Below, one piece after another: positions 1-27,487 of a stretch of DNA of 64,000 nucleotides. The first letter of the stretch is position 1; each line of letters opens with the position of its first letter. Origin of the DNA: Actinokineospora enzanensis DSM 44649. Its GTDB lineage: Bacteria > Actinomycetota > Actinomycetes > Mycobacteriales > Pseudonocardiaceae. The stretch lies in the NCBI RefSeq assembly GCF_000374445.1, contig NZ_KB894406.1, forward strand, positions 124,001-188,000, in the 5' to 3' direction. Below the pieces are notes generated by a model. The model ran no database searches and was not told the DNA's origin. It saw nothing but the letters and a program-made list of their open reading frames with translations. Both the position numbers and the translations under genes were made by a program.

Positions 1-4767
<4,767 letters not shown>

Positions 4768-4771
<4 letters not shown>

Positions 4772-9127: not shown

Positions 9128-10390
9128 ATGACCACGGTGACCGGCAATACCCAGGCCGTCGCGTCCTGGCTCACCGCCAACGCCCATCCACTGCCCGGAA
9201 CCAACGCTTCGCAAGCCCGGCCCGCGTTGTCGCCGCTGCGGGACGTCGTGGGTGACGCCCGGATCGTGGGTATCGGCGGGTCGGTGTATGGCTCCCACGA
9301 GCAGTTCACCCTCACCACGGCCGTGATCCAGTACCTGATCGAGGAACTCGGCTTCCGCACGGTCGCGACCGAGGAGGACTGGGACGTCGCGCTCCCCATC
9401 GACGAGTACGTCGGTGGTGGTACAGGCGATGTGGACGCCCTGGTCGCCGATTCGGGGATGCCCTGGCGCACGCGGGAGACCCGCGAGCTGCTGGAGTGGT
9501 TGCGGGACTACAACTCCCGTGCCACCGAGCGAGTCCGGTTCGTGGGTGCCGGGGTGATCGACACCCGGGCCGAGGTCTACGACCTGGTATCCGACCACGT
9601 GGGCCGCGTCGCCCCTGAGCGGGCTGCGGATCTGGCCGCGCACTTCGGTCCGATCCGGCCGACCGGGCCCGACCACGTGGGGTGGTTCTTCACGCAGGCA
9701 CAGGACAAGGACGCATTGGTGGCGCACGCGCGAGCCGCGCTGGAGCTGGTGGAGTCACTGCCTCGTACCGCGGGGGACCAGACACACGAACTGGCTGTGC
9801 AGCACACGCGGCAGATCGTGGGCTTCTACGAGCACTACACCCATCACGTGGTGGAGGATGGGTATCGAGACCGGTTCATGGCGGACAACCTCGCTTGGTG
9901 GCATGAACACACCGGACACCGGATCGCCTACTGGTCCACCACGGCGCACAGCTTCCGGGCCGATGAGCTCGCCATTGCCATTCCACCCAAGGGGACCATC
10001 CGATTCCGGCCCACCGGGCGGCATCTCCGGGATCGGTTCGGGGACGGGTATGCGTCATTGGCGTTGAGCTATGGCGAGGGGGAGGTCGTCTCCGGTTGGG
10101 GGCTGCCGCCGTTCCAGCGGCGCGTCGTGGGAACTTCGTCGGTGCCGGATGGGTTCGTGGACTCCGTGTTGAACTCGGTGGAGCATGAGAGTTATCTGGT
10201 GAGTTTCCGGGGAGAGTTGCCGGACGAGGTCCGAGAGTGGCGGGCGAGGCAGGGACAGGCCAGGGTGATCGGCTCGGTGGCGTCTCCCGATATCCCCTCG
10301 GAGTCCTACTGGCTCACCGGCGGCACCCAGACCGACTGGTACGACGCCGTGATCCACACCCGCACCAGCACCCCCACCCGGGACCTCTGA
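9128..10390 (+). CDS. Erythromycin-esterase-like protein with altered catalytic motif
   Basis: A 420-residue protein of the erythromycin esterase/succinoglycan-biosynthesis family. The family landmarks align (YLIEELGFRTVATEEDW; MADNLAWWHEH; AHSFRA), but the usual GEATHG segment, which carries catalytic Glu and His in EreA/EreB-type enzymes, reads GGSVYG here, so both are lost. The later Glu (TEEDW) and the AHSFR His are kept. It starts 12 bp after the RCC1 gene and ends the co-directional run, facing the LAL regulator. It is either a catalytically re-purposed hydrolase or a binding protein of the pathway; macrolide resistance is unlikely. Confidence 0.8.
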   Translation: MTTVTGNTQAVASWLTANAHPLPGTNASQARPALSPLRDVVGDARIVGIGGSVYGSHEQFTLTTAVIQYLIEELGFRTVATEEDWDVALPIDEYVGGGTGDVDALVADSGMPWRTRETRELLEWLRDYNSRATERVRFVGAGVIDTRAEVYDLVSDHVGRVAPERAADLAAHFGPIRPTGPDHVGWFFTQAQDKDALVAHARAALELVESLPRTAGDQTHELAVQHTRQIVGFYEHYTHHVVEDGYRDRFMADNLAWWHEHTGHRIAYWSTTAHSFRADELAIAIPPKGTIRFRPTGRHLRDRFGDGYASLALSYGEGEVVSGWGLPPFQRRVVGTSSVPDGFVDSVLNSVEHESYLVSFRGELPDEVREWRARQGQARVIGSVASPDIPSESYWLTGGTQTDWYDAVIHTRTSTPTRDL

Positions 10391-10424: not shown

Positions 10425-13115
10425 CTAGTGGTGCGAGTCCAGGTTCAGCTTCATCAGGTCGCGCCGGGACGAGATATCCAGCTTCCGGAAGATCTTCCGC
10501 AGGTGGTAGTCCACCGTGCGGGGACTGATGAACATCTCCGCCGCCACCTCCCGGTTGGTGGCCCCCCGCCCCACCGCCCGAGCCACCTGCATCTCCTGCG
10601 GCGTCAACCCCTCGGCCACCCCGACGGAAACCCCACCCACGGACTCTCCGGCGGCCCGCAACTCCGCCCGAGCCCGCTCGGCCCAGATAGGCGTCCCCAA
10701 CCGGGCGAACGCGTCCATCGCCGACCGTAGATACCCCCGAGCCGCCCCCCGATGCCGTCCCCGCCGCAAGAACTCCCCATACAGCAACTCGGTACGCGCG
10801 TGATCGAACGGCCGATCCGCCAAAGCGTGCAACCGCAAAGCCTCCCGATAGTGTCCCGAGGCTTCCTCGGCGGAACCGGCCACCAACGCCTGACTTCGTG
10901 ACGCGAGAGCGGTCAGCTCGGCCGAACCGACGGACTCGGCCCAACTCAGGTACCGCCCGACGAGTCGTTCCCCGACCTCGGGCGCCCCCGCTCGCACAGC
11001 CGCCTCGACGTGATCGGGCACCGCGCTCACGGCCATCACCGGACTGCCGGGAACCGGCCCGGAACCGTCCAACTTGGAGAAAGCCACCAAGGCATCCGCC
11101 GACCGGCACTCGGCCAGGGCCAACAGCCCCAACGACCGCTGCGCCACGTCGGCCACCTTCACCAACCGACGCGGCACAGCCTCGGACAGGGCCTGCTCGG
11201 CCATCCGCCGCGCATCCGGCCCCCGGCCGCGCAAGCCGGTGGCCGTGCTCAACAAGGCCAGATGCAGACTCGCCGAGTTCCGTCGACCGGTCTCCTCCGC
11301 CAACCGGAGCCCCTCGTCGGCGAGCGCCTCCGCGGCCGCGTACCGGGCCCGGCTGATCTCGTCCGGTACCAGGTATTCCAGCGTCAACGCCAGTGTCCCG
11401 GCAGCCCCGAGAGCGCGAGCACGAGCGACAGCACGGGCCCGCAGACGAGCCGACAGCCCGTACTCGCCGACCGCCCACGCCATGCCCCCGGCCGCGAGCA
11501 GCAGTTCGGGATCGTCGGAGGACTCGACCTCCACGAGCGCGGCCGTCACCGAGTGATGGTGGGCGGCGTGCGGCGCCAGGAACGTGTCCAGCAGGAACGC
11601 CATCTGACGGTCGGCGGGCTGGTTCAGCTCGGGCAACGACCGCAGGCTCTGGGCGAGGGCGTCCATCGCCTCCGGATGCGCGGCCGTGAACACCGCCTCC
11701 CGGGCCAGCAGCAGGATCTTCAACGCCAGCGTCGGATCGACCGACACGGCCTGACGCGCGGCGGGGACCAGGATCGACACCGATTCGGCAGGCGAACCGG
11801 CGCGCAGCTCGACCGAGCCGCGCAGGTACTGAGCCTCCAGGCCGACCGTGCCGCCGGGGGAGAGGGCCCGCACGCGGTCCAGCAAGGCCAAGGTCGTGGT
11901 CGTGTCCCCGCCTCGCCAGGCGGCCTTGGCGGCGTCGGTGAGGCGGCGCGCGCGGGCATCGACCTCGTGGCTGAGTTCGGCGGCGCGTTCCAGGGCCGCC
12001 GCTGCCGCGAGGTAGCCGGAGCGGTGCAGGGCCTCGGTGGCGGAGCGTTCCAGCTCGATGGCGACTTCCTCGTCCGGACCGGCGCTGGCCTTGGCGCGGT
12101 GCCAGGCGCGGCGTTCGGCGTGCGTGGGGTCGTCGGCGAGGGCTCGGGCCAGGGCGTCGTGGACGGCACGGAGAGTGTCGGGCGGGGCCGAGCCGTAGAG
12201 GGCGGACAGCACCAAGGGGTGACGGAACGACAGCGCGTCGTCCTCCAGCCGCACCAGGTCCGACACCTCGGGGGAGCGCAGCACGCCCGGGTCGACGCCC
12301 AGGTAGCCCGCGGCGCGTTCGACGGCGGCGATCCCGCTGGTCCCGGCGGCCGCGGCGACCAGCAGCATGGCCGCGTCGGGACCGATGCGGTGGATGCGGT
12401 CGAGGAAGGCGCGTTCGAGACGGCCGGTGAGCGGCAGCCCGTCGCCGTCGAGACGGTCCGCCAGCTCCAGCAGGGCCAGCGGGTTGCCGCCGGTGTCGCG
12501 GACCAGGGTGGGCAGCAGGGCGGCGGAGACGCGGTCGCCCAGCAGCTCGGCGGCGGTCGCGTCGTCGAGGCCGGTGAGGTGGAGCTGCCGGAGTCCGGCG
12601 GCGTCGATGTCGCGGCCGGTGTCGTCCCGGACGGCGAGCAGCATGGTGATCGCCTCGGCCTCCAGGCGGCGGCCGACGAAGGCGAAGGCGTCCTGGGAGG
12701 CGGCGTCGCACCACTGGGCGTCGTCGATCACGATGAGCAGGGGTTTCTCGACCGCCAGCTCCGACAGCAGGGTCAGCGCGGCGACCGAGACCAGGAACGG
12801 CTGCGTGGGCGGTCCGGACGCCAGCCCGAACGCGACGCGCAGGGCGTCGGCCTGCGGGTCGGGGAGGCTGTCGACGCGGTCACGGACGGGGAGCAGCAGC
12901 TGGTGCAGCGCAGCATAGGTGAGCGTGGACTCCGACTCGACGCCGACCACGCGCAGTAGCCGGGTGTCGGGCGCGGTGGCCGCCGCGGTGGTGAGCAGGG
13001 CCGACTTGCCGATGCCCGCCGCACCCCGCAGGACCAGCGCGGACCCGCGGGCGTGCCGGGCCTGCCCGATCAGCCGACCGATCGCGGCCAGCTCGACGGT
13101 CCGGCCCAGGAACAT
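10425..13115 (-). CDS. LAL-family LuxR regulator (ATPase + HTH)
   Basis: A protein of 896 residues typical of large ATP-binding LuxR regulators of antibiotic clusters. The N-terminus begins MFLGRTVEL and has the Walker A GAAGIGKSALL and a Walker B LLIVIDDAQW. A long TPR-like helical middle follows, with a C-terminal LuxR HTH (GLTPQEMQVARAVGRG; NREVAAEMFISPRTVDYHLR). ATG 13115 is chosen because MFLGR is the conserved start of the family. It is divergent from an exporter at 13332 and convergent with the esterase-like gene. Three direct repeats lie just upstream at 13128-13182. It is the probable pathway-specific activator of the PKS region. Confidence 0.9.
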   Translation of the reverse strand: MFLGRTVELAAIGRLIGQARHARGSALVLRGAAGIGKSALLTTAAATAPDTRLLRVVGVESESTLTYAALHQLLLPVRDRVDSLPDPQADALRVAFGLASGPPTQPFLVSVAALTLLSELAVEKPLLIVIDDAQWCDAASQDAFAFVGRRLEAEAITMLLAVRDDTGRDIDAAGLRQLHLTGLDDATAAELLGDRVSAALLPTLVRDTGGNPLALLELADRLDGDGLPLTGRLERAFLDRIHRIGPDAAMLLVAAAAGTSGIAAVERAAGYLGVDPGVLRSPEVSDLVRLEDDALSFRHPLVLSALYGSAPPDTLRAVHDALARALADDPTHAERRAWHRAKASAGPDEEVAIELERSATEALHRSGYLAAAAALERAAELSHEVDARARRLTDAAKAAWRGGDTTTTLALLDRVRALSPGGTVGLEAQYLRGSVELRAGSPAESVSILVPAARQAVSVDPTLALKILLLAREAVFTAAHPEAMDALAQSLRSLPELNQPADRQMAFLLDTFLAPHAAHHHSVTAALVEVESSDDPELLLAAGGMAWAVGEYGLSARLRARAVARARALGAAGTLALTLEYLVPDEISRARYAAAEALADEGLRLAEETGRRNSASLHLALLSTATGLRGRGPDARRMAEQALSEAVPRRLVKVADVAQRSLGLLALAECRSADALVAFSKLDGSGPVPGSPVMAVSAVPDHVEAAVRAGAPEVGERLVGRYLSWAESVGSAELTALASRSQALVAGSAEEASGHYREALRLHALADRPFDHARTELLYGEFLRRGRHRGAARGYLRSAMDAFARLGTPIWAERARAELRAAGESVGGVSVGVAEGLTPQEMQVARAVGRGATNREVAAEMFISPRTVDYHLRKIFRKLDISSRRDLMKLNLDSHH

Positions 13116-13127
13116 GACCACCGATCC

Positions 13128-15724: not shown

Positions 15725-16288
15725 GTGTCCGTGCAGGTACAGGACGTGAAGGTGGTGCGCTGGCCTGCCGAGGCAAGCACCCTGGACCGCTACCGGGAGG
15801 AGGGCGCGCTGCGCCTGCTCGTCCTGGAGGGCAAGGCCGAGCCGCCGATCACCGCCGACGTCAAGGAGGACTGGGTCCGGCTGCCGGTCAGCAAGGCCGA
15901 CCTTCTTGCCCGTATCGCCGCCCTCCGCGCGCGGGCCGACGTGCACGTGGTGCCCCGGGTCGACGAGGGCGGCGTGCTCCGCTACGGCGGCCGCGCGGTG
16001 GCCATCTCCCCGGTCGGCGCGGGCGTGCTGGCCCGGCTCGCCCAGGACTTCGGCGTGCTGGTGCCGCGCGAGGTGCTGCAGCACTGCCTGCCCGGCAACG
16101 CCGAACAGCGCAACGCCCTCGACCTGCAGATCATGCGGCTGCGCAGGCGGATCCGGCCGCTCGGACTGGCCATCCGCACCGTCTGGTGCCGCGGCTACCT
16201 GCTGGTGGCGCAGAGCGCGACCGAGGGCCCCGGCAGGCGCGACCCGCTGGACGAGGTGGCCGGGTTGGCCGCCGAGCGGGCGGGCTGA
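15725..16288 (+). CDS. Atypical OmpR-type DNA-binding regulator with degenerate receiver
   Basis: A 187-residue protein. The first ~80 residues look like a remnant receiver: the segment EDWVRLPVSKADLLARIAALRAR mimics the end of a response-regulator receiver, but no phospho-acceptor Asp pocket or conserved Lys is visible. The C-terminal half is a Trans_reg_C winged helix (PVGAGVLARLAQDFGVLVPREVL; ALDLQIMRLRRRI; VWCRGYLLV). GTG 15725 is preceded by GAGGGA; an earlier in-frame ATG at 15683 lacks a ribosome site. It is 3 bp from the PIG-L gene and divergent from MarR. It probably regulates the ATP-grasp cluster without a sensor kinase. Confidence 0.75.
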   Translation: MSVQVQDVKVVRWPAEASTLDRYREEGALRLLVLEGKAEPPITADVKEDWVRLPVSKADLLARIAALRARADVHVVPRVDEGGVLRYGGRAVAISPVGAGVLARLAQDFGVLVPREVLQHCLPGNAEQRNALDLQIMRLRRRIRPLGLAIRTVWCRGYLLVAQSATEGPGRRDPLDEVAGLAAERAG

Positions 16289-16291
16289 CCC

Positions 16292-17101
16292 GTGGCCACG
16301 CTGGTGTCCTTCCACGCCCACCCCGACGACGAGGCCATCTGCTGCGGCGGCACGCTGCGCAAGGCCGCCGCCGACGGCCACCGGGCGGTGCTGGTCGTCG
16401 CCACCCGGGGCGAGCTGGGCGAGGTCGTGCCGGGCGTGCTCGAACCGGGCGAGTCGCTCGCGTCCCGCCGGGTCGCCGAGACCGAGGAGGCCGCGCGGCT
16501 GCTCGGCGTGCACCGCGTGGAATTCCTGGGCTACCGCGACTCCGGCATGATGGGCGCGGCCACCAACACCGAGCCCGGCGCCTTCTGGGCCGCCGACCTG
16601 GACGAGGCCGCCGAGCGGCTCGCGGCGATCCTGCGCGCGGAGGCCGCCGACGTGCTGACCGTCTACGACAGCCACGGCGGCTACGGGCACCCCGACCACA
16701 TCCAGGTCCACCGCGTCGGCCTGCGCGCCGCCGACCTCGCCGGAACGCCCCGCGTCTACCAGCAGACCGTCAACCGCGACCGGATGCGCCGCGGCCGCAA
16801 GGCCTTCGCCGCTCGGGCCGTCCAGGCGGGCATGGAGCTGCCCGGCCCGGCCGACGAGGAGTTCCTGGACACCTTCGGCTCCCCGGAGTCCGAGATCACC
16901 GCCGCCATCGACGTGTCCGCGCACGCCCTGGACAAGCGCGCCGCCATCCGCGCGCACGCCAGCCAGGTGAGCGAGAAGTCCGTCTGGCTGGCCATGCCGG
17001 AGGAGGGCTTCCGCTTCGCCTTCGGCACCGAGTTCTACATCCGCGCGGGCCAGGGGCCCGGCATCACCGAGACCGACCTGTTCGCCGGACTGCCCGGCTG
17101 A
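16292..17101 (+). CDS. PIG-L/LmbE family N-acetyl-hydrolase (Zn deacetylase)
   Basis: A 269-residue metal-dependent deacetylase or amidase. It has the Zn motif HPDDE (residues about 10-14) and the second metal His in GGYGHPDHIQVH, as in MshB and Mca of mycothiol metabolism and in deacetylases of antibiotic pathways. A hairpin follows at once (17104-17140), so it forms a two-gene unit with the regulator before it. It could deacetylate a pathway intermediate or hydrolyse a mycothiol conjugate; the sequence does not decide. GTG 16292 is used as the start, with VATLVSFHAHPDDE matching the family N-terminus. Confidence 0.85.
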   Translation: MATLVSFHAHPDDEAICCGGTLRKAAADGHRAVLVVATRGELGEVVPGVLEPGESLASRRVAETEEAARLLGVHRVEFLGYRDSGMMGAATNTEPGAFWAADLDEAAERLAAILRAEAADVLTVYDSHGGYGHPDHIQVHRVGLRAADLAGTPRVYQQTVNRDRMRRGRKAFAARAVQAGMELPGPADEEFLDTFGSPESEITAAIDVSAHALDKRAAIRAHASQVSEKSVWLAMPEEGFRFAFGTEFYIRAGQGPGITETDLFAGLPG

Positions 17102-17103
17102 CC

Positions 17104-17140
17104 GGGTCACCGATCCCAGCGCACCCGGGATCGGTGACCC
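17104..17140 (+). terminator. Strong hairpin between the PIG-L gene and the ATP-grasp operon
   Basis: GGGTCACCGATCCC (17104-17117) and GGGATCGGTGACCC (17127-17140) form a perfect 14-bp stem with a 9-nt loop, starting 3 bp after the stop codon. There is no U tract, as is usual in actinomycetes. It splits the regulator/PIG-L unit from the ligase operon, leaving 83 bp for an internal promoter before 17224. Confidence 0.8.
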
Positions 17141-17223
17141 ACGACGGGCGGACCGCGGACCAGCACCCTGGAGACACGCCCGCGCGTCCCGCGGGCGGCA
17201 GGCGACAGCGAGGGAGTCGACCC

Positions 17224-18477
17224 GTGAACCCCGACCGGACCCTGCTGCTAGTCGGGCACCCGACGGAGGCCGTCCGCACGGCCAAGGAACTGGGCCTCGG
17301 GGTGATCCTGCTACAGCACAAGAGCAAGTTCGAGCCCGCCCAGGCCGAGCTGGCCGACGAGACGTTCCTGGTCGAGTACACCGACTGGACCGTCAGCGGC
17401 CCGCTGGCCGAGTTCGCGCACCGGCGCTGGGGCTTCGCCGCCGCGGTCTCGCTCACCGACCCGGGGCTGGAGATCGCCGGTCGGGTCAACGACCGCTACG
17501 GCCTCGGTGGCACCGGCTACGACGTGAGCCACCTGCTGCTGAACAAGGCCGTCATGCGGGAACACCTGCGGGACAAGGGTTTTCGGGCGACCATCGGTTT
17601 CGAGCTGGTGCGTGACGAACGCAGCCTGCTCGCCTTCGGCGCCGACCACGGCTACCCGTTCATCGTCAAGCCCACCGACACCGCGGGCGGCTTCGGCGTC
17701 AAACGGGTCGACGGGCCCGCGGACGCGGCGGCGCTGTGGCAGTGGATCGCGCACACCCGCGAGCACGGCATGGACCGCGGCCCGGCGGCGCTGTTCACGA
17801 TCACCGACTTCATCATGGAGGAGTTCGTCGACGGCCCCGAGTTCAGCGTCGAGTCGTTCAGCTTCGGCGGCAGGCACATCGTGGTCGCGGTGACCGAGAA
17901 GGACATCGCCCCCGGCCACTTCGCCGAGCTCGGGCATACCCTGCCCGCCCGGATCAAGCCGGAGCTGGAGTCCGAGATCGTCGCCGTCACCACCGAGTTC
18001 CTGGACACCGTGGGACTGCGCGACGGCGTCAGCCACACCGAGATCCGGTTCGGCGCCGACGGGCCGGTCGTGATCGAGGGGCACAACCGCGGCGGCGGCG
18101 ACCGCATCCTGGACCTGGTCCGGTCCGCGTATGGCATCGACCTGGTCGGCTATGCCCTCGGCTGGCCGTTCGGCCTGGTCGAGCCGTTGGCCGAGCGGCC
18201 GACCCCGAACGGCGGTGCGGCGGTGCGGTTCCTGCACGGCGAGTCCGGTGTGGTCGGTGCGATCGCGGGGGTCGACGAGCTGAAGGAGCGGCCGGAGGTG
18301 ATCGCGGCCGAGACGTATGTGTCGGTGGGCAGCCGGGTCGGCCCGCTCCAGGACGACTTCGACCGGTTCGGCCTGGTCGCGGTGTCCGGCGCGGACTCGC
18401 ACGCGGCCGCCACCCAGTGCGAGAAGCTGATCGCCGAGTCCGTGCGCATCACCGTCGAGGCGGAGGTGGGCGCGTGA
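17224..18477 (+). CDS. ATP-grasp carboxylate-amine/thiol ligase (first of tandem)
   Basis: A 417-residue ATP-grasp enzyme, expected to activate a carboxylate as acyl phosphate and join it to an amine (amino acid or peptide ligase). Visible elements are the substrate-side Lys (LLLNKAVMREHL), the glycine-rich ATP loop IVKPTDTAGGFGV, the EEFVDGPEFSVE strand, and the metal-binding HTEIRFGADGPVVIEGHNRGGGD segment with Glu and Asn. GTG 17224 follows GCGAGGGAG. It overlaps the next gene by GTGA. It is the first gene after the hairpin, probably the start of the biosynthetic operon. Confidence 0.9.
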   Translation: MNPDRTLLLVGHPTEAVRTAKELGLGVILLQHKSKFEPAQAELADETFLVEYTDWTVSGPLAEFAHRRWGFAAAVSLTDPGLEIAGRVNDRYGLGGTGYDVSHLLLNKAVMREHLRDKGFRATIGFELVRDERSLLAFGADHGYPFIVKPTDTAGGFGVKRVDGPADAAALWQWIAHTREHGMDRGPAALFTITDFIMEEFVDGPEFSVESFSFGGRHIVVAVTEKDIAPGHFAELGHTLPARIKPELESEIVAVTTEFLDTVGLRDGVSHTEIRFGADGPVVIEGHNRGGGDRILDLVRSAYGIDLVGYALGWPFGLVEPLAERPTPNGGAAVRFLHGESGVVGAIAGVDELKERPEVIAAETYVSVGSRVGPLQDDFDRFGLVAVSGADSHAAATQCEKLIAESVRITVEAEVGA

Positions 18478-19235
18478 GCACCCTGATCCTCGATCGCGCC
18501 GACGGCCCGCTGCCGCCCTACCGCGACTGGCTGGACGACGGCGACGACCTGATCCTGTTCACCGACCGCGCCGCCGACGACATCCCGACGCACTACTCGG
18601 CCGTCCGCACGTTCGCCGACTACGCCACGTCCGGCGCCGTCGAGCTGGCCGCTCTCGACCAGCCGGTCACGGCTTTGGTCGCTCTCGCCCCCGCCGACGC
18701 GATCCGCGCGGGCGCCCTCCGCGACCACCTGCGCCTGCCCGGTCAGGGACGGGCCGCCGCGATCGCGGCCGTGGACCTTCTCGTGCAGCGCAAGCGCTTG
18801 AGCCGTGTCGGTCTGCCGGTCGTCCCGTACGGACAGGTCGACCGTGCCGCCGATCTGCACTGGTACGCCCATCTCTGGGGCTACCCGCTGCGCGTGCGGT
18901 CCACTCGCGACCGGGGTTGGCCGGTCCTGGCTCGACTGTCCACCGAGGACGAGATCACCGCGTTCGCCGCCGCCACCTTCACCCCGGACCTGCGTTACCT
19001 CCCGGGTCTGGTGGCCGAACCCGGCACGATCGAACCCGCTGTCCGCTACCGGGTCCCCGGCCCAAATCTCGTCCATGCCGCCATCGACGCCCTGCCCGAC
19101 CCGGGCGGGCCACCCGTCGTGCACGTGGTCCTGTTCGACGGCGAGCCGCACGTGGATGTCGTCGACACCTGGGCGTCCGGCCGTGACGCCGCCCGACAGC
19201 AGGCAGGTCTCGCGATCGAGGAGGTGACCGGATGA
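18474..19235 (+). CDS. Degenerate ATP-grasp paralogue (pseudo-ligase)
   Basis: A 253-residue protein without an obvious family at first sight. Its N-terminal half lines up with the ATP-grasp enzyme encoded next at 19232: MSTLIL/MSVLIL, YRDWLDD/YDRWLAD, LRLPGQ/LDLPGQ, VGLPVVPYGQV/AGVEVAAYRDL, WGYPLRVR/HGYPVVVK. The ATP-binding Lys and Gly loop (VVVKPRDGAGSLGV in the neighbour) have become LRVRSTRDRGWPVL, and the acidic metal ligands of HAEIF and GEIACR are replaced (HVVLF, VDTWAS). It is 186 residues shorter than the neighbour. It overlaps genes on both sides by 4 bp, so it is made in step with both intact ligases. It is probably a non-catalytic partner subunit; catalysis is unlikely. Confidence 0.7.
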   Translation: MSTLILDRADGPLPPYRDWLDDGDDLILFTDRAADDIPTHYSAVRTFADYATSGAVELAALDQPVTALVALAPADAIRAGALRDHLRLPGQGRAAAIAAVDLLVQRKRLSRVGLPVVPYGQVDRAADLHWYAHLWGYPLRVRSTRDRGWPVLARLSTEDEITAFAAATFTPDLRYLPGLVAEPGTIEPAVRYRVPGPNLVHAAIDALPDPGGPPVVHVVLFDGEPHVDVVDTWASGRDAARQQAGLAIEEVTG

Positions 19236-20551
19236 GCGTCCTGATCCTGCACCTGCGCAACTCCCTCAAGGACACCCCCTACGACCGGTGGCTGGCCGAC
19301 TACGACGGCGACCTGCTGCTGCTCGCCTCCCGCGAGCACCTGGAGCTGGGTGGCGAGGAGCTGCCCGGCCCGGACAGCGGCTACACCCATGTCGAGGCGA
19401 TCAGCGGCTACCAGTTCGGCGGCGGCGTCGAGGCCCGCGTGCTGGAACTGGCCCGGAAGTACGACATCCGCCACATCATCGCCCCGCAGGAGCAGGACCT
19501 GGAGCGCGCGGCTCGCCTGCGCGAGATCCTCGACCTGCCGGGCCAGCGGTACGAGAGCGTACTGCCGTACCGCAACAAGATGCTGATGAAGGACACCGTG
19601 CGTGCCGCCGGGGTCGAGGTCGCCGCGTACCGGGACCTGGAATGCGCACTCGACCTGCTGACCTTCGCCGACGAGCACGGCTACCCGGTGGTGGTCAAGC
19701 CGCGCGACGGCGCCGGGTCGCTCGGCGTGCGGATCCTGCGCACCCCCGAGGCGCTGCACGCGTTCCTCGCCGACGAGGGCGAGCCGATCATCGGCGGGCA
19801 CGGCAACCTCAAGGTGGAGAACTTCGTGTCCGAGACCATGTGCCATGTGGACGGTCTGGTCGTGGACGGTCAGATGATCTACGCCTGGCCCTCGCAGTAC
19901 CTCTACGCCCTCGCCGCCTTCCAGGGCGACCGGGGCGGCAGGCTGGACGTCACCCTCGACGCCGACGACCCGCTGACCCCGCGCCTGCTGGACTGCGCGG
20001 ACAAATGCATCGCCGCGCTGCCCGCACCCCGCGACTTCGCCTTCCACGCGGAGATCTTCCACACCGAGGACGACCGGGTCGTGCTCGGCGAGATCGCCTG
20101 CCGTACCGGCGGCGCCGCCCAGCGCGACATCCAGCGCGCGCTGTTCGACATCGACCCGACCGAGGCGTGGATCCGCGCCCAGGTCGGCCTCCCGCTGCCG
20201 TTCACCCCCGGCGCGCCCCGGCTCGTCCCGCTGACCCTCACCGGCCAGCTCGCCCTGCTCAAACGGCCCGGCGTGGTCGAGGAGATGCCAGGGGAGCCGC
20301 CGTTCGACTGGGTGCGCAAGCAGAACCTGTTCATCCGCGCCGGGGACGTGCTCGACGAGCCCGCCTACGCCGCGGACTTCCTGGTCACGTACGTGATCGC
20401 CGCGCCGACCCGCGCGGAGAGCGTCCGCCGCATGCGCGAGCTGGAGGACTGGTTCCTCGGCGCGCTGCGGCTGGGCGCGGGCGGCGTGGAGCCCACGGCC
20501 CGCCGGGCGCGCCTGGCGGGCATGAGCGAGGGGACCGGAAATGCCCGATGA
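19232..20551 (+). CDS. ATP-grasp ligase (second intact copy)
   Basis: A 439-residue ATP-grasp protein with intact signatures: YRNKMLMKDTV (Lys), YPVVVKPRDGAGSLGV (ATP loop), NFVSETMCHVDGLVVDG, and HAEIFHTEDDRVVLGEIACRTGG supplying the metal ligands. It is distinct from the ligase at 17224, so two different amide bonds can be imagined. ATGA overlap with the degenerate paralogue upstream; the 3' end overlaps the PLP enzyme by 11 bp. The resemblance to the truncated neighbour indicates a local duplication followed by decay of one copy. Confidence 0.9.
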   Translation: MSVLILHLRNSLKDTPYDRWLADYDGDLLLLASREHLELGGEELPGPDSGYTHVEAISGYQFGGGVEARVLELARKYDIRHIIAPQEQDLERAARLREILDLPGQRYESVLPYRNKMLMKDTVRAAGVEVAAYRDLECALDLLTFADEHGYPVVVKPRDGAGSLGVRILRTPEALHAFLADEGEPIIGGHGNLKVENFVSETMCHVDGLVVDGQMIYAWPSQYLYALAAFQGDRGGRLDVTLDADDPLTPRLLDCADKCIAALPAPRDFAFHAEIFHTEDDRVVLGEIACRTGGAAQRDIQRALFDIDPTEAWIRAQVGLPLPFTPGAPRLVPLTLTGQLALLKRPGVVEEMPGEPPFDWVRKQNLFIRAGDVLDEPAYAADFLVTYVIAAPTRAESVRRMRELEDWFLGALRLGAGGVEPTARRARLAGMSEGTGNAR

Positions 20552-21488
20552 CCGCCGCTACGCCACCCGCCTGGAGGAACTGGTCGGCCGCACGCCGCTG
20601 GTCCGGCTGTCCTATCCGGACGTCCCGGCCGAGACCAGGCTGCTGGCCAAGCTGGAGCTGTTCAACCCGATGTCGAGCGTGAAGGACCGTCCCGCGTTGC
20701 ACATGCTGGTCGCGGCCGAGCAGGCCGGGCTGCTCGACCCGGCGGGCGGCACGGTGGTGGAGTACTCCTCCGGCAACATGGGCATCGCACTGGCCGGGCT
20801 GTGCGCGGCGCGCGGCCACCGGTACGTGCTGGTCATGCCGGACAACGCGACCGAGGAGCGGCGCGGCATCGCGCGGGCGTTCGGCGCGGAGCTGGTGACC
20901 ACCCCGCACGAGGAGGGCCTGCCGGGCACGATCGCGCGGGCGGAGGCCGTGGCGGCGTCGATCCCGGGCGCGTGGCTGGTGAACCAGGCGTTCAACCCGG
21001 ACAACACGGCCGCGCACTACGACACCACCGGCCCCGAGGTGTGGGAGGCGACCGGCGGCGAGGTCGACGTGCTGGTGTGCACGGTCGGCACCGGCGGCAC
21101 GTTGACCGGGATCGCGCACTACATCAAGGAACGTCGGGACCTGCACGTGGTCGCGGTCGAACCGGCCAAGTCGCCGGTGCTGTCCGGGGGCGAGCACAGC
21201 ATCCACCGGATCCCGGGGATCGGGCCGGGGTTCGTGGCCGAGGTGACCGACGTGGGCAGCATCGACGAGATCATCACCGTGTCCGATGAGGACGCCGGTC
21301 TGGCGACGAAGGAACTGGCCGCGAAGGCGGGGATCTTCGTCGGGGTGTCCGCGGGCGCGGCGGCGTTCGCGGCCCGTGTGGTGGCGCGGCGCCCGGAGTT
21401 CGCGGGCAAGACCGTGGTGACCGTGTTCCCGGACACCGGCGAGCGGTATCTGTCCATGTGGGAGTCACTGGGGGAGGAACAGGCGTGA
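20541..21488 (+). CDS. PLP-dependent CysK/SbnA-like beta-substituted alanine synthase
   Basis: A 315-residue fold-type II PLP enzyme. PLP Lys in NPMSSVKDRPAL, substrate loop YSSGNMGIAL, phosphate-binding GTGGTLTG and the GVSAGAAAF Ser near the C-terminus are all present. The loop reads SSGNMG rather than the TSGNTG of housekeeping cysteine synthases, resembling SbnA-type enzymes that make N-(1-amino-1-carboxyethyl)glutamate from O-phosphoserine. No SbnB-like dehydrogenase is nearby, so the nucleophile is unknown. It probably supplies an unusual beta-substituted alanine to the ATP-grasp ligases. Confidence 0.87.
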   Translation: MPDDRRYATRLEELVGRTPLVRLSYPDVPAETRLLAKLELFNPMSSVKDRPALHMLVAAEQAGLLDPAGGTVVEYSSGNMGIALAGLCAARGHRYVLVMPDNATEERRGIARAFGAELVTTPHEEGLPGTIARAEAVAASIPGAWLVNQAFNPDNTAAHYDTTGPEVWEATGGEVDVLVCTVGTGGTLTGIAHYIKERRDLHVVAVEPAKSPVLSGGEHSIHRIPGIGPGFVAEVTDVGSIDEIITVSDEDAGLATKELAAKAGIFVGVSAGAAAFAARVVARRPEFAGKTVVTVFPDTGERYLSMWESLGEEQA

Positions 21489-22240
21489 GCGGGTTCGCTT
21501 CGGCGTTACGGGAACGTCGCCGGATGATCGGCACCTGGGTCGTCACGGACAACGCCATCGGCGCGGAATCGTTGGCGGGCCTGGGTTTCGACTTCCTCTG
21601 TGTGGACGGTCAACATGGACTGTTGGACGAACGCGCCTGGCTGACCGTGTTGACGCACATCGCCACCCGCGACGGCGCCGTGGGCATCGCCCGCGTGCCG
21701 GGCAACGACGCGGTGACCATCGGCCGGGCGCTCGACCTGGGCGCCGAGGCCGTCGTGGTGCCGATGATCGACAACGCCGCCCAGGCCGCGGCGGCCGCCC
21801 GTGCCTGCCGCTACGTGCCCGAGGGGAACCGCAGCTACGGGCCGATGCGGGCGGAACCGCGCGGCGCAGGCACGCCCGCCGAGGCGAACGGCCGGGTCGC
21901 CTGCGTGGTGATGATCGAGACCGCCGAGGCGCTGGCCGACATCGACGCCGTCTGCGCGGTCGACGGGATCGACGGTGTCCTGGTGGGACCGTTCGACCTC
22001 ACCCTGGCCCTGGGCGGCACCGGTTTCGGCGACCCGGCCGTCGCCGACCGCCTGACCGAGGCCCTGGACCGGGTGGCTGCGGCCGCCGAGCGGGCCGGGA
22101 TCGCGGCGGGCGTGCACTGCCCGGACGCGGCCACCGCCGCCAAGCGCCTGGCGGACGGATTCACCTTCGCCACCGTGTCCTGCGACCTGATGCTGCTGGA
22201 GGAGGCGGCGACCGCGGCATTACGCGGCGTGCGCGGCTGA
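21485..22240 (+). CDS. HpcH/HpaI-family aldolase (SbnG-like candidate)
   Basis: A 251-residue (beta/alpha)8 class II aldolase. Visible family residues are the His in DGQHGLLD, Arg in GIARVPGND, metal Glu in VMIETAEA and metal Asp in VGPFDLTLALG. The family makes or cleaves 2-oxo acid aldols with pyruvate or oxaloacetate; SbnG of staphyloferrin B biosynthesis uses the fold as a citrate synthase. GTG 21485 overlaps the PLP gene (GTGA). It carries two TTA codons (21506-21508, the eighth codon, and 22220-22222), which would make translation depend on the rare leucyl tRNA. It probably builds an oxygenated acid unit for the same product. Confidence 0.85.
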   Translation: MSGFASALRERRRMIGTWVVTDNAIGAESLAGLGFDFLCVDGQHGLLDERAWLTVLTHIATRDGAVGIARVPGNDAVTIGRALDLGAEAVVVPMIDNAAQAAAAARACRYVPEGNRSYGPMRAEPRGAGTPAEANGRVACVVMIETAEALADIDAVCAVDGIDGVLVGPFDLTLALGGTGFGDPAVADRLTEALDRVAAAAERAGIAAGVHCPDAATAAKRLADGFTFATVSCDLMLLEEAATAALRGVRG

Positions 22241-22329
22241 TCCCACCCGCGCGGGACCGTCGGCCCATGACGCGGGGAAACGACCGGACGAGCATGGTCC
22301 GCAGACCCAGTCTGGCGAAAGGACACACC

Positions 22330-23220
22330 GTGGCAGGCTTCGACATCCACCGGATCGGCGGCCGTATCGGCGCGGAGGTCGTCGGCGTCGACCCCGGTGG
22401 CCCGCTCGCCGACGACGTCGTCCGCGACCTCAACGCGGCCCTGCTGGCGCACAAGGCGTTGGTGTTCCGCGGCGCGAACCTCACCGACGAGTCCCAACTG
22501 GAGTTCGCCGCCCGCTTCGGCCCGCTGACCAAGGCCCACCCGACCGGCGTGCCCTCGGTGGACGGAAAGCCGGAGGTACTGCCGATCGACGGCGACGACC
22601 ACCGGGCCAACCACTGGCACACCGACTGCACGTTCGTGCGCACCCCGCCCAAGGCCAGCACCCTGCGCGGCATCGTCATCCCCGCGTACGGCGGCAACAC
22701 GCTGATCGCCAACCAGGCCGCCGCCTACCTCGACCTGCCCCGCGAACTGCGCGAGCTGGCCGACAAGCTGTGGGCGGTGCACACCAACGACGCAGGCCAG
22801 CCACTGCTGTCGACCGACCGCGCGGACGAGTACCGCAAGATGTTCCTGGCCACCATCTACAAGTCCGTCCATCCGGTCGTCCGCGTGCACCCGGAGTCGG
22901 GCGAGCGCGGCCTGTTCGTCAGCGGCTTCGCCCAGCAGCTGGTCGGGTACTCCATCAGCGAGTCCCGCGCCATCCTGGACATGCTCCAGCGCTACGTCAT
23001 CCGCCCGGAGAACGTCCTGCGCGTCCGCTGGACCCCGGGCGACCTCGTCCTGTTCGACAACCGCAACACCCAGCACTACGGCCCCGACGACTACGACGAC
23101 CAGCCCCGCATGCTTCACCGCGTCACCATCGCCGGGGATGTGCCGGTCGGTGTCGACGGCGGCAAGAGCTACCTGCTCGAAGGCGACGACGCCGCGCACT
23201 ACACACCCCCGGTGGAATGA
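22330..23220 (+). CDS. TauD/TfdA-family Fe(II)/2-oxoglutarate dioxygenase
   Basis: A 296-residue dioxygenase. The iron facial triad is visible as HTD in NHWHTDCTF and the distal His in MLHRVTIAGD, with the following Arg for 2-oxoglutarate; LVLFDNRNTQHYG is the family's C-terminal strand. I choose GTG 22330, which follows GCGAAAGGA, over an ATG at 22267 without a ribosome site. It most likely hydroxylates or desaturates an amino acid or the assembled peptide. The 90-bp gap before it is the widest within the run from 17224 to 24481. Confidence 0.9.
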   Translation: MAGFDIHRIGGRIGAEVVGVDPGGPLADDVVRDLNAALLAHKALVFRGANLTDESQLEFAARFGPLTKAHPTGVPSVDGKPEVLPIDGDDHRANHWHTDCTFVRTPPKASTLRGIVIPAYGGNTLIANQAAAYLDLPRELRELADKLWAVHTNDAGQPLLSTDRADEYRKMFLATIYKSVHPVVRVHPESGERGLFVSGFAQQLVGYSISESRAILDMLQRYVIRPENVLRVRWTPGDLVLFDNRNTQHYGPDDYDDQPRMLHRVTIAGDVPVGVDGGKSYLLEGDDAAHYTPPVE

Positions 23221-23236
23221 CGACAGCGAGGACCGC

Positions 23237-24481
23237 ATGACCAGATCGTTGGCCGACCGCCTGGCCCTGCCGTCCATCCGCGGCCACGGCGGCCTGGTCG
23301 CCGCCCTCGCCGTGGACAGCGTCGGCACCGGCCTGTTCATGCCCTTCGGCGTCGTCTACTTCCTCTACACCACGGACCTGACCCTGCCCGTGGTCGGCGT
23401 CAGCCTCACCATCGCCCGCCTCCTGGCCATCCCGATGTCCCTCGTGGTCGGCCCGCTGATCGACCGCTACGGCGCCCGCGCGGTGCTGGTGTGGGGCAAC
23501 CTGGTGGGCGCGGCGGCGTTCGCGGGCTACCTGTTGGCCGACACCGTGTGGCTGGTCGTCGTGGTGACCTTCCTGGCGGGCGCGGGCCAGAGCACCTTCT
23601 GGACGGCGATCCGCACTCTGGTGGGAACGGTGATCCCGGCCCCACAACGCACGAGCTGGTTCGCCTTGCAGTCGATGACCCGCAACGCGGGCTTCGGCCT
23701 GGGCGGTCTCATCGGCGCGGTCGCGGTGGGGTCGGGCAGCCAGTGGGTGTACTACCTGTTCGCGGGCCTGAACGCGGCCAGTTTCGTGCTGGCGGCTTTT
23801 CTGGTGCTGCGGTGGCGGACTCCGGATGCGGCGGGGGAGTCCGCTCGACAGAGTGGGTCGAACCCGTTCGGGGGCTATCGACAGCTGGTCCGAGATCGTG
23901 CCCTGGCGATGGTGACCGCGGTGAACCTGGCGTTTGTCATGTGCGCCAACGTTCTCACGATCCTGTTGGTCGTCTATGTGACACAGGAGCTGCACCAGCC
24001 GCCGTGGGTGGGCGGTGCGTTGTTCACGGTGAACACGGTTCTGGTGTCGACGACCCAGACTCTGACTACCCGGGCCCTGCGCGCCTTGTCCCATCCGGCT
24101 GTGTTGCGGTTGGCGTCGGTGCTGTGGGCGGGGTCGTTCGCGTTGATGTGGTTGATGTCGGTGGTGCCTGAGTGGATGGTGATCCCGGGGATGTTCATCG
24201 CGCTGGTGACCTTCACGGTGGCGGAGATGGCGCAGGATCCGATCCTGAACACACTCCTGTCGGAGATCTCCCCACCCGGCATGACCGGCCGCTACATGGC
24301 GGCGTTCCAGTTGTCGTGGAGCTTCGGGGGAGCGGTGGCGCCGTTCCTCCTCACCTGGCTACTCTCCCTCGGCCTCGCGACGACCTGGCTCACCATGATC
24401 GTGATCTGCCTGGCCGCCGTCCTGGGCACCACCCGCCTCAAGCTCCCGACCACGGAACCCGGTCAGGCAAAATCCGGTTAA
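23237..24481 (+). CDS. MFS exporter of the ATP-grasp cluster
   Basis: A 414-residue 12-TMS-type major facilitator with many hydrophobic segments; the LVVGPLIDRYGARAVLVWGNL loop between helices 2 and 3 is the MFS motif A. ATG 23237 follows GCGAGGA and lies 16 bp after the dioxygenase, so it closes the operon. The likely role is export of the peptide-like product. Its 3' half uses more T-rich and less GC-biased codons than the genes before it. Confidence 0.87.
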   Translation: MTRSLADRLALPSIRGHGGLVAALAVDSVGTGLFMPFGVVYFLYTTDLTLPVVGVSLTIARLLAIPMSLVVGPLIDRYGARAVLVWGNLVGAAAFAGYLLADTVWLVVVVTFLAGAGQSTFWTAIRTLVGTVIPAPQRTSWFALQSMTRNAGFGLGGLIGAVAVGSGSQWVYYLFAGLNAASFVLAAFLVLRWRTPDAAGESARQSGSNPFGGYRQLVRDRALAMVTAVNLAFVMCANVLTILLVVYVTQELHQPPWVGGALFTVNTVLVSTTQTLTTRALRALSHPAVLRLASVLWAGSFALMWLMSVVPEWMVIPGMFIALVTFTVAEMAQDPILNTLLSEISPPGMTGRYMAAFQLSWSFGGAVAPFLLTWLLSLGLATTWLTMIVICLAAVLGTTRLKLPTTEPGQAKSG

Positions 24482-24527: not shown

Positions 24528-25409
24528 GTGACCCACCTGAGCTACCTGGAAGCCATCGTGGTCGGCGCGTTCCAGGGCGTAACCGAACTGTTCCCGGTCT
24601 CCAGCCTGGGCCACAGCATCCTCATCCCGGCCATCATCGGCGGCCGCTGGGCGGAAGACCTCTCCGTCTCCACGCCGGAGTCCCCCTACCTGGCCTTCAT
24701 CGTCGGCCTGCACGTGGCCACCGCCGCCGCGCTGCTGGTCTTCTTCTGGCGGGACTGGGTCCGCATCGTCGGCGGCCTGGTCTCGTCGGTCCGCCACCGC
24801 CGGGTCACCACGCCGGACGAACGCCTGGCCTGGCTGCTCATCATCGGCACCATCCCGGTCGGTGTCTGCGGCCTGCTCCTGGAACACCTCTTCCGGACCA
24901 CCCTGGGCAAACCCATCCCGGCCGCCGCGTTCCTCATCACCAACGGCCTGCTCCTCCTCCTGGGCGAACGCCTTCGCCGCCGCACCGAACCGCAGGCCCC
25001 CGCGCCGACCGACCAGGACACCCGGCTGAGCACCATGACCACCAAGTCCGGCCTCCTCATCGGCACCGCCCAGGTACTGGCCCTCCTGCCCGGCCTGAGC
25101 CGCTCCGGCCTCACCATGATCACCGGCCTGGTGCGCGGTCTGTCCCATGAGGACGCCGCCCGCTTTTCCTTCCTGCTTTCCACCCCGGTCATCCTGGCGG
25201 CGGGCCTGCTCAAGATCCCCGACCTCTTCGGTCCGCTCGGTGCGGGCATCGGTGGTCAGGTCATCGCGGGCAGCATCGCCTCCTTCGCCTCCGCCTACCT
25301 GGCCGTCAAATATCTCACCGCCTACTTCCACTCCAAAACCCTCACCCCGTTCGCCATCTACTGCGTCCTGGCCGGAACGGCGGCACTGACATGGCTATCG
25401 TTCTCCTGA
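24528..25409 (+). CDS. uppP: Undecaprenyl-diphosphatase UppP/BacA
   Basis: A 293-residue integral membrane phosphatase that recycles undecaprenyl pyrophosphate to the monophosphate carrier for cell-wall synthesis. The two family motifs are clear: FQGVTELFPVSSLGH near the N-terminus and LPGLSRSGLTM in the second half. GTG 24528 lies 46 bp after the exporter on the same strand. Extra UppP gives bacitracin resistance in other bacteria, so a self-protection role for the neighbouring cluster is possible; it may equally be an unrelated housekeeping copy. Confidence 0.93.
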   Translation: MTHLSYLEAIVVGAFQGVTELFPVSSLGHSILIPAIIGGRWAEDLSVSTPESPYLAFIVGLHVATAAALLVFFWRDWVRIVGGLVSSVRHRRVTTPDERLAWLLIIGTIPVGVCGLLLEHLFRTTLGKPIPAAAFLITNGLLLLLGERLRRRTEPQAPAPTDQDTRLSTMTTKSGLLIGTAQVLALLPGLSRSGLTMITGLVRGLSHEDAARFSFLLSTPVILAAGLLKIPDLFGPLGAGIGGQVIAGSIASFASAYLAVKYLTAYFHSKTLTPFAIYCVLAGTAALTWLSFS

Positions 25410-25481
25410 CCACCGGCGGCAACACGAAAAGAACCGGCGAGCCGTCCGGCGCGACAACCCCTTCACCCCCACACTGACCCA

Positions 25482-26678
25482 GTGCGAAAACGCATCATCC
25501 TTCTGGCCCTGGCCGCGGCCATCCTCGCCACCACCCTCTTCGGCCTCCCCCTTGCCCTGAGCATCGCCAAGTACTACCTCCACAACGAACGCGCGGAACT
25601 CGAACGCGTAGCCGCCCGGGTGGCCATCTCCCGCACCACCATCCCCGCAGAGTTCCAAGACGACACCATCGCCTGGTACAGCCCATCCGGCATCCGCACC
25701 CTCGGCTCCGGCCCACCCACCGCCGACCAGGCCGTCCAGGAGGCAACCGAGCACAACGAGGTGACCCACCACACCACGACCACCGAAATGGTCGTAGCCG
25801 TCCCAGCGGAAACCGGCACGGTCCGCGTCGCCACCCCCATAGGCGAGGTAATCCGCCAGACCGGTCTCACCTGGCTGGCGATGACCGTCCTGGCCGCGCT
25901 GGCCCTGACCCTCTCCTGGCTGGCGGCCCGTCGCATGGCCGCCAGACTCGCCCACCCGCTCGAAACCCTCACCACCGCGGCCCGATCCCTCGGCAATGGC
26001 GACTTCACGGTGCGAACCGCTCGAACCGGCATTCCCGAAATAGATTCCGTAGGCGCCTCCCTCGATTCCACCGCCCACCGCCTGGGCGAAACCCTCGACC
26101 GAGAACGCGCCTTCTCCGCCAACGCCTCCCACCAGCTCCGCACCCCCTTGACCGGCCTCCGCCTACAACTGGAGTCCGCCCTCCAAGACCCCCACACCGA
26201 CCCCTACGACACCATCCGCGCCTGCCTGGAGACCACCGACCGCCTGGAGCGCACAGTCGACGACCTCCTCACCCTCGCCCGCGCAACTCCCACGGCCGCG
26301 GAAACCGACCTCCCCACCCTCCTGGCCGAGACCCGCACCGCCTGGGAGGCCCACCACGACCGCCCCCTCCACATCACCGCCCACGGCGCCCCCGACCCCC
26401 ACGCCTCCTCCGCCGCCGTCCGTCAGATCCTGCAGGTCCTCCTCGACAACGCCCAGACCCACGGCACCGGCGCCGTCACGATCACCGCCCGCGACGCGGG
26501 CGAGACCCTCGCCATCGACGTCGCCGACGAGGGCGCCTTCCCCGACCTGGACCCGTTCGCCCCCGGCGACGGCATCGGCCTCCCGCTCGCCCGCCGTCTC
26601 GCCGAGGCCGAGGGCGGCCGCCTGGTCCTGGCCTCGACCACCCCGACCAGGTTCACCCTGCTCCTGCCGACCCACTAG
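25482..26678 (+). CDS. Two-component sensor histidine kinase
   Basis: A 398-residue membrane kinase: N-terminal TM segment (residues about 4-28), an extracytoplasmic part of roughly 110 residues, a second TM segment (LTWLAMTVLAALALTLSWLA), HAMP, HisKA box with ANASHQLRTPLTGLR and an ATPase domain with the LLDNAQTHG (N box) and GDGIGLPLARRLAE (G box) motifs. The stop codon TAG lies inside a palindromic repeat (26675-26750). The partner response regulator follows at 26807. It starts at a GTG 72 bp after uppP. Confidence 0.9.
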   Translation: MRKRIILLALAAAILATTLFGLPLALSIAKYYLHNERAELERVAARVAISRTTIPAEFQDDTIAWYSPSGIRTLGSGPPTADQAVQEATEHNEVTHHTTTTEMVVAVPAETGTVRVATPIGEVIRQTGLTWLAMTVLAALALTLSWLAARRMAARLAHPLETLTTAARSLGNGDFTVRTARTGIPEIDSVGASLDSTAHRLGETLDRERAFSANASHQLRTPLTGLRLQLESALQDPHTDPYDTIRACLETTDRLERTVDDLLTLARATPTAAETDLPTLLAETRTAWEAHHDRPLHITAHGAPDPHASSAAVRQILQVLLDNAQTHGTGAVTITARDAGETLAIDVADEGAFPDLDPFAPGDGIGLPLARRLAEAEGGRLVLASTTPTRFTLLLPTH

Positions 26679-26750
26679 TGGTGCGACCCGGGACGTCGAC
26701 CGCGTCTCGACCCGCCCATACCCGGCCGACATCCTGGGTCGCACCACTGG
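26675..26750. repeat. MITE/REP-like palindromic element, short copy
   Basis: Inverted arms of 25 bp (26677-26701 and 26724-26748) with 3 mismatches, beginning CTAGTGGTGCGACCC and ending GGGTCGCACCACTGG. The same arms and the internal TCTCGACCCGCCCA recur in the copy at 47172-47338, of which this looks like an internal deletion. The left end supplies the TAG stop of the histidine kinase. No ORF lies within. It also stands between the kinase and its response regulator. Confidence 0.8.
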
Positions 26751-26806
26751 ATGTTGACTTGTTGAACGACCGACCGGCGCGGGCCGACCACCACTACCCT
26801 CGGCAC

Positions 26807-27487
26807 GTGCCGCATGTGTTGCTCGTGGAGGACGACCCGACGATCGGTCAGGCCCTGGAGTCCAGCCTGCGCCTGCACGGCCACGACGTCACCTGGGTCA
26901 CCACCGGCGCCGCGGCCCTCGCCGGGCACCCGGCCGTCGACCTCGTGCTGCTCGACCTCGGCCTCCCCGATCTCGACGGCGTCGACCTCTGCCGCAGGTT
27001 GCGCGCCGTCCTGCCGCACGCCGTGCTGGTCATCCTCACCGCCCGGCAGGACGAGATGGACGTCGTCGTCGGCCTGGAGGCGGGTGCCGACGACTACCTC
27101 ACCAAGCCCGTCCGCCTCGGTGAGCTGCTCGCCCGCGTCAGCGCTCACCTGCGGCGCGGTCCCGTCGGCCTGCCCGGTCAGCCCGCCATCGCGGTCGGCG
27201 CCCTGCGCGTCGACCCGGCGGGCAGGCGGGTCAGTGTCGCGGGCCAGGAGATCCCGTTGCGCGCCAAGGAGTTCGACCTGCTGGCGCGGCTCGCCGCCGA
27301 GCCCGGCGTCGCGGTCAGCCGAGACACGCTGATGACCGAGGTCTGGGACGCGCACTGGTACGGCTCCACCAAGACCCTCGACGTCCACATCGCCGCCCTG
27401 CGCCGCAAGCTCGCCGTCAACCCGCAGACGCCGGAGATCTCCACCGTTCGCGGCCACGGGTACCGCTTGGAGCGGCCCCGGCAGTGA
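26807..27487 (+). CDS. OmpR/PhoB-family response regulator
   Basis: A 226-residue response regulator. The receiver carries the acidic pair EDD near residue 9, the phospho-acceptor Asp in LVLLDLGLPD, and Lys in LTKPVRLGELLARV. The C-terminal winged helix is RAKEFDLLARLAAEPG followed by TLDVHIAALRRKL and TVRGHGYRLE. GTG 26807 is chosen because VPHVLLVEDD matches the family N-terminus. It pairs with the kinase upstream, 128 bp away because of the repeat element. Its stop abuts the stop of the convergent MarR gene in a TGATCA overlap. Confidence 0.92.
   Translation: MPHVLLVEDDPTIGQALESSLRLHGHDVTWVTTGAAALAGHPAVDLVLLDLGLPDLDGVDLCRRLRAVLPHAVLVILTARQDEMDVVVGLEAGADDYLTKPVRLGELLARVSAHLRRGPVGLPGQPAIAVGALRVDPAGRRVSVAGQEIPLRAKEFDLLARLAAEPGVAVSRDTLMTEVWDAHWYGSTKTLDVHIAALRRKLAVNPQTPEISTVRGHGYRLERPRQ

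Follow-up and report, generated by a model that had tools for sequence, protein, structure and literature searches.

The DNA analysed here, referred to as the window, is a 64,000-nucleotide stretch of Actinokineospora enzanensis DSM 44649 (contig NZ_KB894406.1, positions 124,001 to 188,000; coordinates preceded by C4 refer to the whole contig). Nine genes occupy its positions 15725 to 24481, all of them open, on the + strand and closely packed, and two ATP-grasp ligases with a third ATP-grasp gene between them lie in their midst. The families that the original prediction had read from the letters were in agreement with Pfam and NCBIfam.

The set opens with a winged helix-turn-helix regulator (Trans_reg_C) at 15725-16288 (PF00486, 29.4 bits, cut-off 26.2; Lentzea nigeriaca counterpart, 71%) and a PIG-L deacetylase at 16292-17101 (PF02585, 103.7 bits), followed by the first ligase, ATG1, an ATP-grasp amino-acid ligase at 17224-18477 (PF13535, 76.7 bits; LAL_C2, 50.5 bits; nearest solved chain 3vot, E 9e-22). 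The middle gene, ATGm (18474-19235), precedes the second ATP-grasp ligase, ATG2 (19232-20551), which matched PF02786 (25.3 bits, cut-off 19.8) and RizA (4wd3, E 9e-20), stayed below the cut-off of PF13535 (24.4 bits, cut-off 27) and has relatives labelled "NikS protein" in plasmid annotations. Next come a CysK-family pyridoxal phosphate enzyme at 20541-21488 (PF00291, 231.5 bits), an HpcH/HpaI-type aldolase (HpaI) at 21485-22240 (PF03328, 109.8 bits), a TauD/AtsK-type Fe(II)/2-oxoglutarate dioxygenase (TauD) at 22267-23220 (PF02668, 195.9 bits; AtsK, E 6e-83) and an MFS exporter at 23237-24481 (PF07690, 148 bits). The predicted core overlaps of 4 to 11 bp were found: 4 bp for ATG1/ATGm and ATGm/ATG2, 11 bp for ATG2/CysK and, taking the GTG at 21485 as the HpaI start, 4 bp for CysK/HpaI.

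The gene between the two ligases

ATGm had been taken for a decayed ligase, but it proved to be an intact open reading frame of 253 amino acids belonging to a family present in 24 loci. A match at E 1e-5 was found in 25 of 390 genomes of the taxonomic family; counterparts of near-full length (41 to 57% identity) occurred in five other genomes, and the remaining matches were partial. The wider comparison rested on an alignment-based scan for ATG2 relatives, from which the best 80 of 83 were taken. Seventy-nine of these (L109 fell outside the ATG2 cluster), the window, L039-L042 and L044-L047 gave 88 loci, that is, 94 ATG2 loci minus six distant ones (L048, L050-L053 and L056); some species are represented by two strains, and several loci are truncated at a contig end. 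Genes in related loci were called by codon usage, so that starts may be wrong (L059, L135 and others). By clustering of the called genes, ATGm was present in 24 of these 88 loci, all chosen for a close relative of ATG2. It overlapped the downstream ATG2 by 4 bp in 16 of the 24 and ended 1 to 2 bp before it in 6; in the other two, where the start calls are doubtful, it lay farther away (50 bp in L059, 524 bp in L135).

The residues lost from ATGm were the same throughout. In window ATG2 numbering, K116, K156 and E287 were each retained in none of the 24 proteins, and the stretch that carries S221 and R237 was missing from all of them. In ATG2, for its part, both lysines were present in 29 of 30 rows (the remaining row being a gap) and E287, S221 and R237 in all 30. 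From knowledge of the family, we take the lost positions to be those that bind ATP and metal. Scored on its catalytic positions, ATGm failed the test for an ATP-grasp amino-acid ligase; ATG1 and ATG2 passed theirs, the latter with PF13535 below the cut-off.

No Pfam model matched the window's ATGm. Its AlphaFold model, built from 15 sequences, was nevertheless confident (pLDDT 91.0, pTM 0.84) and passed the ATP-grasp fold test, with the amino-acid ligase RizA as the best solved fold match (E 8e-14, TMq 0.70, TMt 0.48). A profile search also pointed to a RizA-type ligase (E 2e-8). Among solved structures, ATG1, ATG2 and ATGm are closest to the L-amino-acid ligases RizA, BL00235 and BacD, none of which is known to have a dead partner subunit. 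In the openly licensed literature accessible to us, ATP-grasp and pseudoenzyme were met together in one paper, on tubulin ligase-like 12.

The ratio of nonsynonymous to synonymous substitution (dN/dS) was 0.12 to 0.61 for ATGm and 0.07 to 0.40 for ATG2, being higher for ATGm in all 12 pairs, which were hand-picked from near relatives, have sequences in common and come without a test of significance. By this measure ATGm is constrained, less strongly than ATG2. When 94 ATG2 proteins were placed on a tree, the presence of ATGm in 24 rows required 2 changes, compared with a shuffled mean of 21.6. No single branch set these rows apart; one did for the 64 near relatives lacking ATGm (97/80), so that a single gain followed by later loss would be the simplest history.

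Since the residue loss was found in 24 of 24 proteins, dN/dS stayed under 1 in all 12 pairs and the ATP-grasp fold was modelled with confidence, ATGm is a retained ATP-grasp pseudoenzyme, an old conserved gene minus its catalytic residues, and not a product of decay. The pseudogene reading was dropped on account of the intact frame, the 24-locus family, the position and the constraint. A subtler variant, in which ATGm is a functionless, slowly decaying ATG2 duplicate, would fit both the uniform loss of conserved ATG2 positions and the higher dN/dS; however, a gene that is open and adjoins ATG2 across four families of Actinomycetota, evolves at the ratios given and keeps a confident fold makes this variant improbable.

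Linkage in related genomes and the larger conserved region

In the 88 loci, ATG1, or an ATG0-ATG1 fusion, was found within three genes of ATG2 in 81, and within six genes of ATG2 there was a CysK in 80, an MFS gene in 72 and a serine acetyltransferase (SAT) in 42. The homologues were thus linked and not scattered, and the expectation that ATP-grasp ligases form the basis of an amide-forming set was borne out by the ATG1-ATG2-CysK linkage in most loci. HpaI and CysK occurred together in 9 of the 88 fetched stretches, with TauD adjoining HpaI in 8. In the ninth, L039 of a Streptomyces plasmid, TauD was in two overlapping pieces (2211-3072) with no annotated coding sequence; it may be broken there and is intact in related loci. 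Among 396 genomes drawn from the phylum, ATG2 at E 1e-60 matched the window's own genome only, and a protein search of genome contigs with the ATG2 sequence alone gave no match. Two more tandem ATP-grasp sets with an MFS gene nearby were seen in the same genome (L048 on G000:C29 and L049 on G000:C3), at approximately 30 to 33% identity to ATG1/ATG2. In many related clusters, a short N6/N4 DNA-methylase-like gene (L081:12606-13262 and relatives, a cluster of 24 genes) adjoined the MFS gene or CysK, and it is a possible self-protection gene.

The CysK enzymes differed in their substrate loop. All 40 SAT-linked CysKs, which formed one side of a branch in a FastTree tree, the only tree made of them, and all 36 others without an adjoining HpaI or flavin monooxygenase had TSGNTG. 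The 18 distinct CysKs found beside HpaI or in the second block described below had SSGNTG, SSGNMG (the window's version), SSGSTG or SSGNTA, and such an altered loop suggests a different substrate. The "SbnA-like" label given to the window's CysK found little support: the protein scored 341 bits against the cysK model (cut-off 351) and 224 bits against SbnA TIGR03945 (cut-off 350), under both, and an assignment as SbnA 2,3-diaminopropionate synthase was rejected. A D-cycloserine-type O-ureidoserine synthase was also set aside, appearing only as a lower-ranked PDB match. HpaI was nearest to hydroxyketoacid aldolase among solved chains (E 5e-38). Homologues of it at about 50% lay elsewhere in three genomes of genus g10, and two plasmid matches adjoined pdxA, a sugar-acid kinase and phosphoglycerate dehydrogenase, a different kind of cluster. 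PIG-L failed the MshB test (TIGR03445, 178 bits, cut-off 224), and another locus of the same genome, on contig C17, passed it with 348.6 bits; PIG-L of the nine-gene set is therefore an extra, MshB-like paralogue.

A deacetylase nearer to MshB than to other named models and a CysK just below the cysK cut-off recall low-molecular-weight thiol chemistry, and the set could on that ground make a dedicated thiol or amino-acid precursor instead of a peptide-type amide. We regard this as quite unlikely, given that, of the loci examined, just the window and Lentzea had the PIG-L cluster, that the two ligases were the constant part and that the CysK loop was altered.

In Lentzea nigeriaca all nine genes were present with their order kept, and the similarity did not begin where the set does. 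The original prediction had placed the start of the cluster at 15725, but conservation extended left to contig position 74,542, approximately 49 kb left of the window; on the right it stopped at 24481, with the MFS gene as the boundary. Of the 64 genes called in C4:74,542-148,481, 56 were reciprocal best hits with the Lentzea stretch (127,878-193,988), with a median identity of 71%. Outside the region, in a comparison covering 98 kb of Lentzea, reciprocal best hits were found for 0 of 19 genes on the left and 0 of 36 on the right. Gene order was mostly kept, the left end and one small group being rearranged. The region contains two adjacent FabF-like ketosynthases, which we read as KSalpha and KSbeta, and acyl carrier protein, acetyl-CoA carboxylase, SnoaL-like, cupin and ABM genes, together with two pyruvate-dehydrogenase-E1-like genes and a type I polyketide synthase (PKS) with an aryl-AMP ligase. 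A second block, at C4:82,994-91,629, comprises AsnB, PrpF-like, acyl-CoA dehydrogenase (ACAD), dihydroorotase-like (DHO) and flavin monooxygenase (FAD) genes, a second CysK and a methyltransferase, names that rest on 49 to 72% identity to annotated plasmid proteins and on scans of Streptosporangium homologues and of the methyltransferase. The DHO-like protein had a match in 3 of 100 relatives.

The two ends of this region meet elsewhere. Four Streptomyces plasmids carry TauD-HpaI-CysK followed by the same AsnB-PrpF-ACAD-DHO block, and in G1144 that quartet adjoins an ATP-grasp-CysK fusion. In the plasmids of S. zaomyceticus and S. goshikiensis, the annotation names an enediyne chromoprotein, a tyrosine 2,3-aminomutase and a type I PKS, and in the former also an "enediyne biosynthesis protein". 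Both plasmids share with the window's cluster ATG1, ATG2, CysK, HpaI, TauD and the AsnB-PrpF-ACAD-DHO block. Unlike it, they also encode ATG0, a serine acetyltransferase, a tyrosine aminomutase and a chromoprotein, and their called loci showed no ATGm; the window's region, unlike theirs, has the FabF-like ketosynthases and another type I PKS (KS-AT-DH-KR-ACP). In the window's own genome, a further quartet, 49 to 60% identical, lies on G000:C15 (L195-L196, approximately 25.5-30.7 kb), with ATP-grasp or CysK genes absent within the 40 kb inspected.

The nine genes thus look like the right end of a 74-kb antibiotic-type hybrid cluster, of which the window shows part only, and not like a standalone peptide pathway. 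Co-inheritance of a free-standing pseudo-tripeptide cluster with a polyketide cluster beside it would account for the exporter and regulator among the nine genes, and minimal relatives such as L078 and L125 consist of SAT, CysK, ATG1, ATG2 and MFS genes without the TauD-HpaI or AsnB-PrpF-ACAD-DHO block. We nonetheless consider it rather unlikely: 56 of 64 genes are kept jointly with Lentzea across the entire region, and the block of AsnB-PrpF-ACAD-DHO-FAD and the second CysK, placed at the other end here, adjoins the same trio in the Streptomyces plasmids.

Proposed function and known systems

From the gene content, linkage, residue loss and constraint observed above we infer the following chemistry. 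With moderate confidence, we read 15725-24481 as the amide-ligase end of a hybrid biosynthetic cluster of approximately 74 kb that makes a beta-substituted alanine unit and joins it to a larger partner, with ATGm as a partner or regulator of ATG2. CysK would form the beta-substituted alanine, and HpaI and TauD would supply or tailor the side chain of its product. ATP-grasp ligases activate carboxylates as acyl phosphates and form amides; ATG1 and ATG2 would act in this way to give two amide bonds, and ATGm, catalytically dead, would presumably contact ATG2. PIG-L may strip an N-acyl group and the MFS protein may export the product. The alanine-derived unit would probably be attached to, or made beside, the polyketide of the same cluster. 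Of the earlier reading, the ATP-grasp amide-forming set therefore stands, and a free-standing pseudo-di- or tripeptide became less likely because polyketide genes share the larger conserved region in which the set lies.

Several results weigh against this assignment. ATGm retained some ATG2 positions (E196 in 23 of 24, E274 in 19 of 24), and 64 of the 88 ATG2 loci were without ATGm, so that ATG2-type ligases can do without it. L044-L047 have ATG1-ATGm-ATG2-CysK and no HpaI or TauD, which makes these two optional and not core. Together with the ligase-free second quartet on G000:C15, the same loci imply that the blocks can be parted and may contribute to different products. Finally, the flank control is silent on homologues elsewhere in the Lentzea genome, beyond the stretch compared.

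A more ambitious version, which is possible though doubtful, would make ATGm and ATG2 an obligate two-subunit amide ligase, with ATGm dead, within a transferable side-chain module. The CysK, HpaI, TauD and AsnB-PrpF-ACAD-DHO-FAD blocks would then build an undescribed, perhaps heteroaromatic, alanine derivative grafted onto unrelated scaffolds, an aromatic polyketide here and chromoprotein enediynes in Streptomyces (with ATG2 and no ATGm). An aza-tyrosine unit as in kedarcidin might fit the second block in outline. In the openly licensed papers found on this subject, as far as their text was available, neither aza-tyrosine nor ATP-grasp was met. Enediyne mining is treated in PMC5181780.

ATP-grasp ligases are valued as carrier-free, simple amide-forming tools, and controlling one through a conserved dead partner would be novel. 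That the blocks recur beside annotated enediyne and polyketide genes suggests a common, uncharacterised building block, which could be sought in dozens of public genomes.

Two known systems came closest. The dapdiamide pathway (dda), according to the available part of PMC12568646, uses stand-alone amide ligases (the ATP-grasp DdaF among them) together with an Fe(II)/2-oxoglutarate oxygenase, and its product is a pseudotripeptide. A dapdiamide-type assignment nevertheless failed on the DdaF model (24 bits for ATG1 and 34 for ATG2, cut-off 840); CysK was below the SbnA cut-off, and by Pfam no SbnB-type gene was among the window's nine. The ketomemicin pathway (ktm) combines an aldolase with an ATP-grasp ligase in an actinomycete cluster free of nonribosomal peptide synthetases, and also encodes a pyridoxal phosphate C-acyltransferase, a dehydratase, an amidinotransferase and a dehydrogenase (PMC11943689, in the part available). 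By Pfam the nine genes include none of these four, and the ketomemicin assignment failed on these defining genes. Dynaplanin, an actinomycete pseudopeptide, was rejected since its five-gene cluster consists of other families, as far as PMC9239090 could be consulted. The earlier statement that no described pathway has this exact set held for the openly licensed literature accessible to us, most subscription journals and MIBiG lying outside that search.

Neighbouring genes in the window

To the left of the nine genes, the conserved region continues with the type I PKS (KS-AT-DH-KR-ACP by Pfam; positions 1-4771, + strand, beginning 152 bp left of the window; Lentzea partner, 60%) and the aryl-AMP ligase, which resembles dihydroxybenzoyl-adenylate synthase (4768-6432, + strand; TIGR02275, 575 bits, cut-off 724; partner, 72%). 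A LuxR-type AAA regulator (PF13191 and PF00196) lies on the - strand at 10425-13121 and has a Lentzea partner at 64%. Between them are a gene for an RCC1-repeat (beta-propeller) protein at 7955-9115, 74% to Lentzea, and an erythromycin-esterase family gene at 9128-10390 (PF05139, 171.6 bits; partner, 61%), which might serve in self-resistance or tailoring. Immediately right of the cluster, at 24528-27487, a BacA/UppP-type gene and a pair of sensor kinase and response regulator genes had no partner in the compared Lentzea stretch, as was the case for the genes further right.

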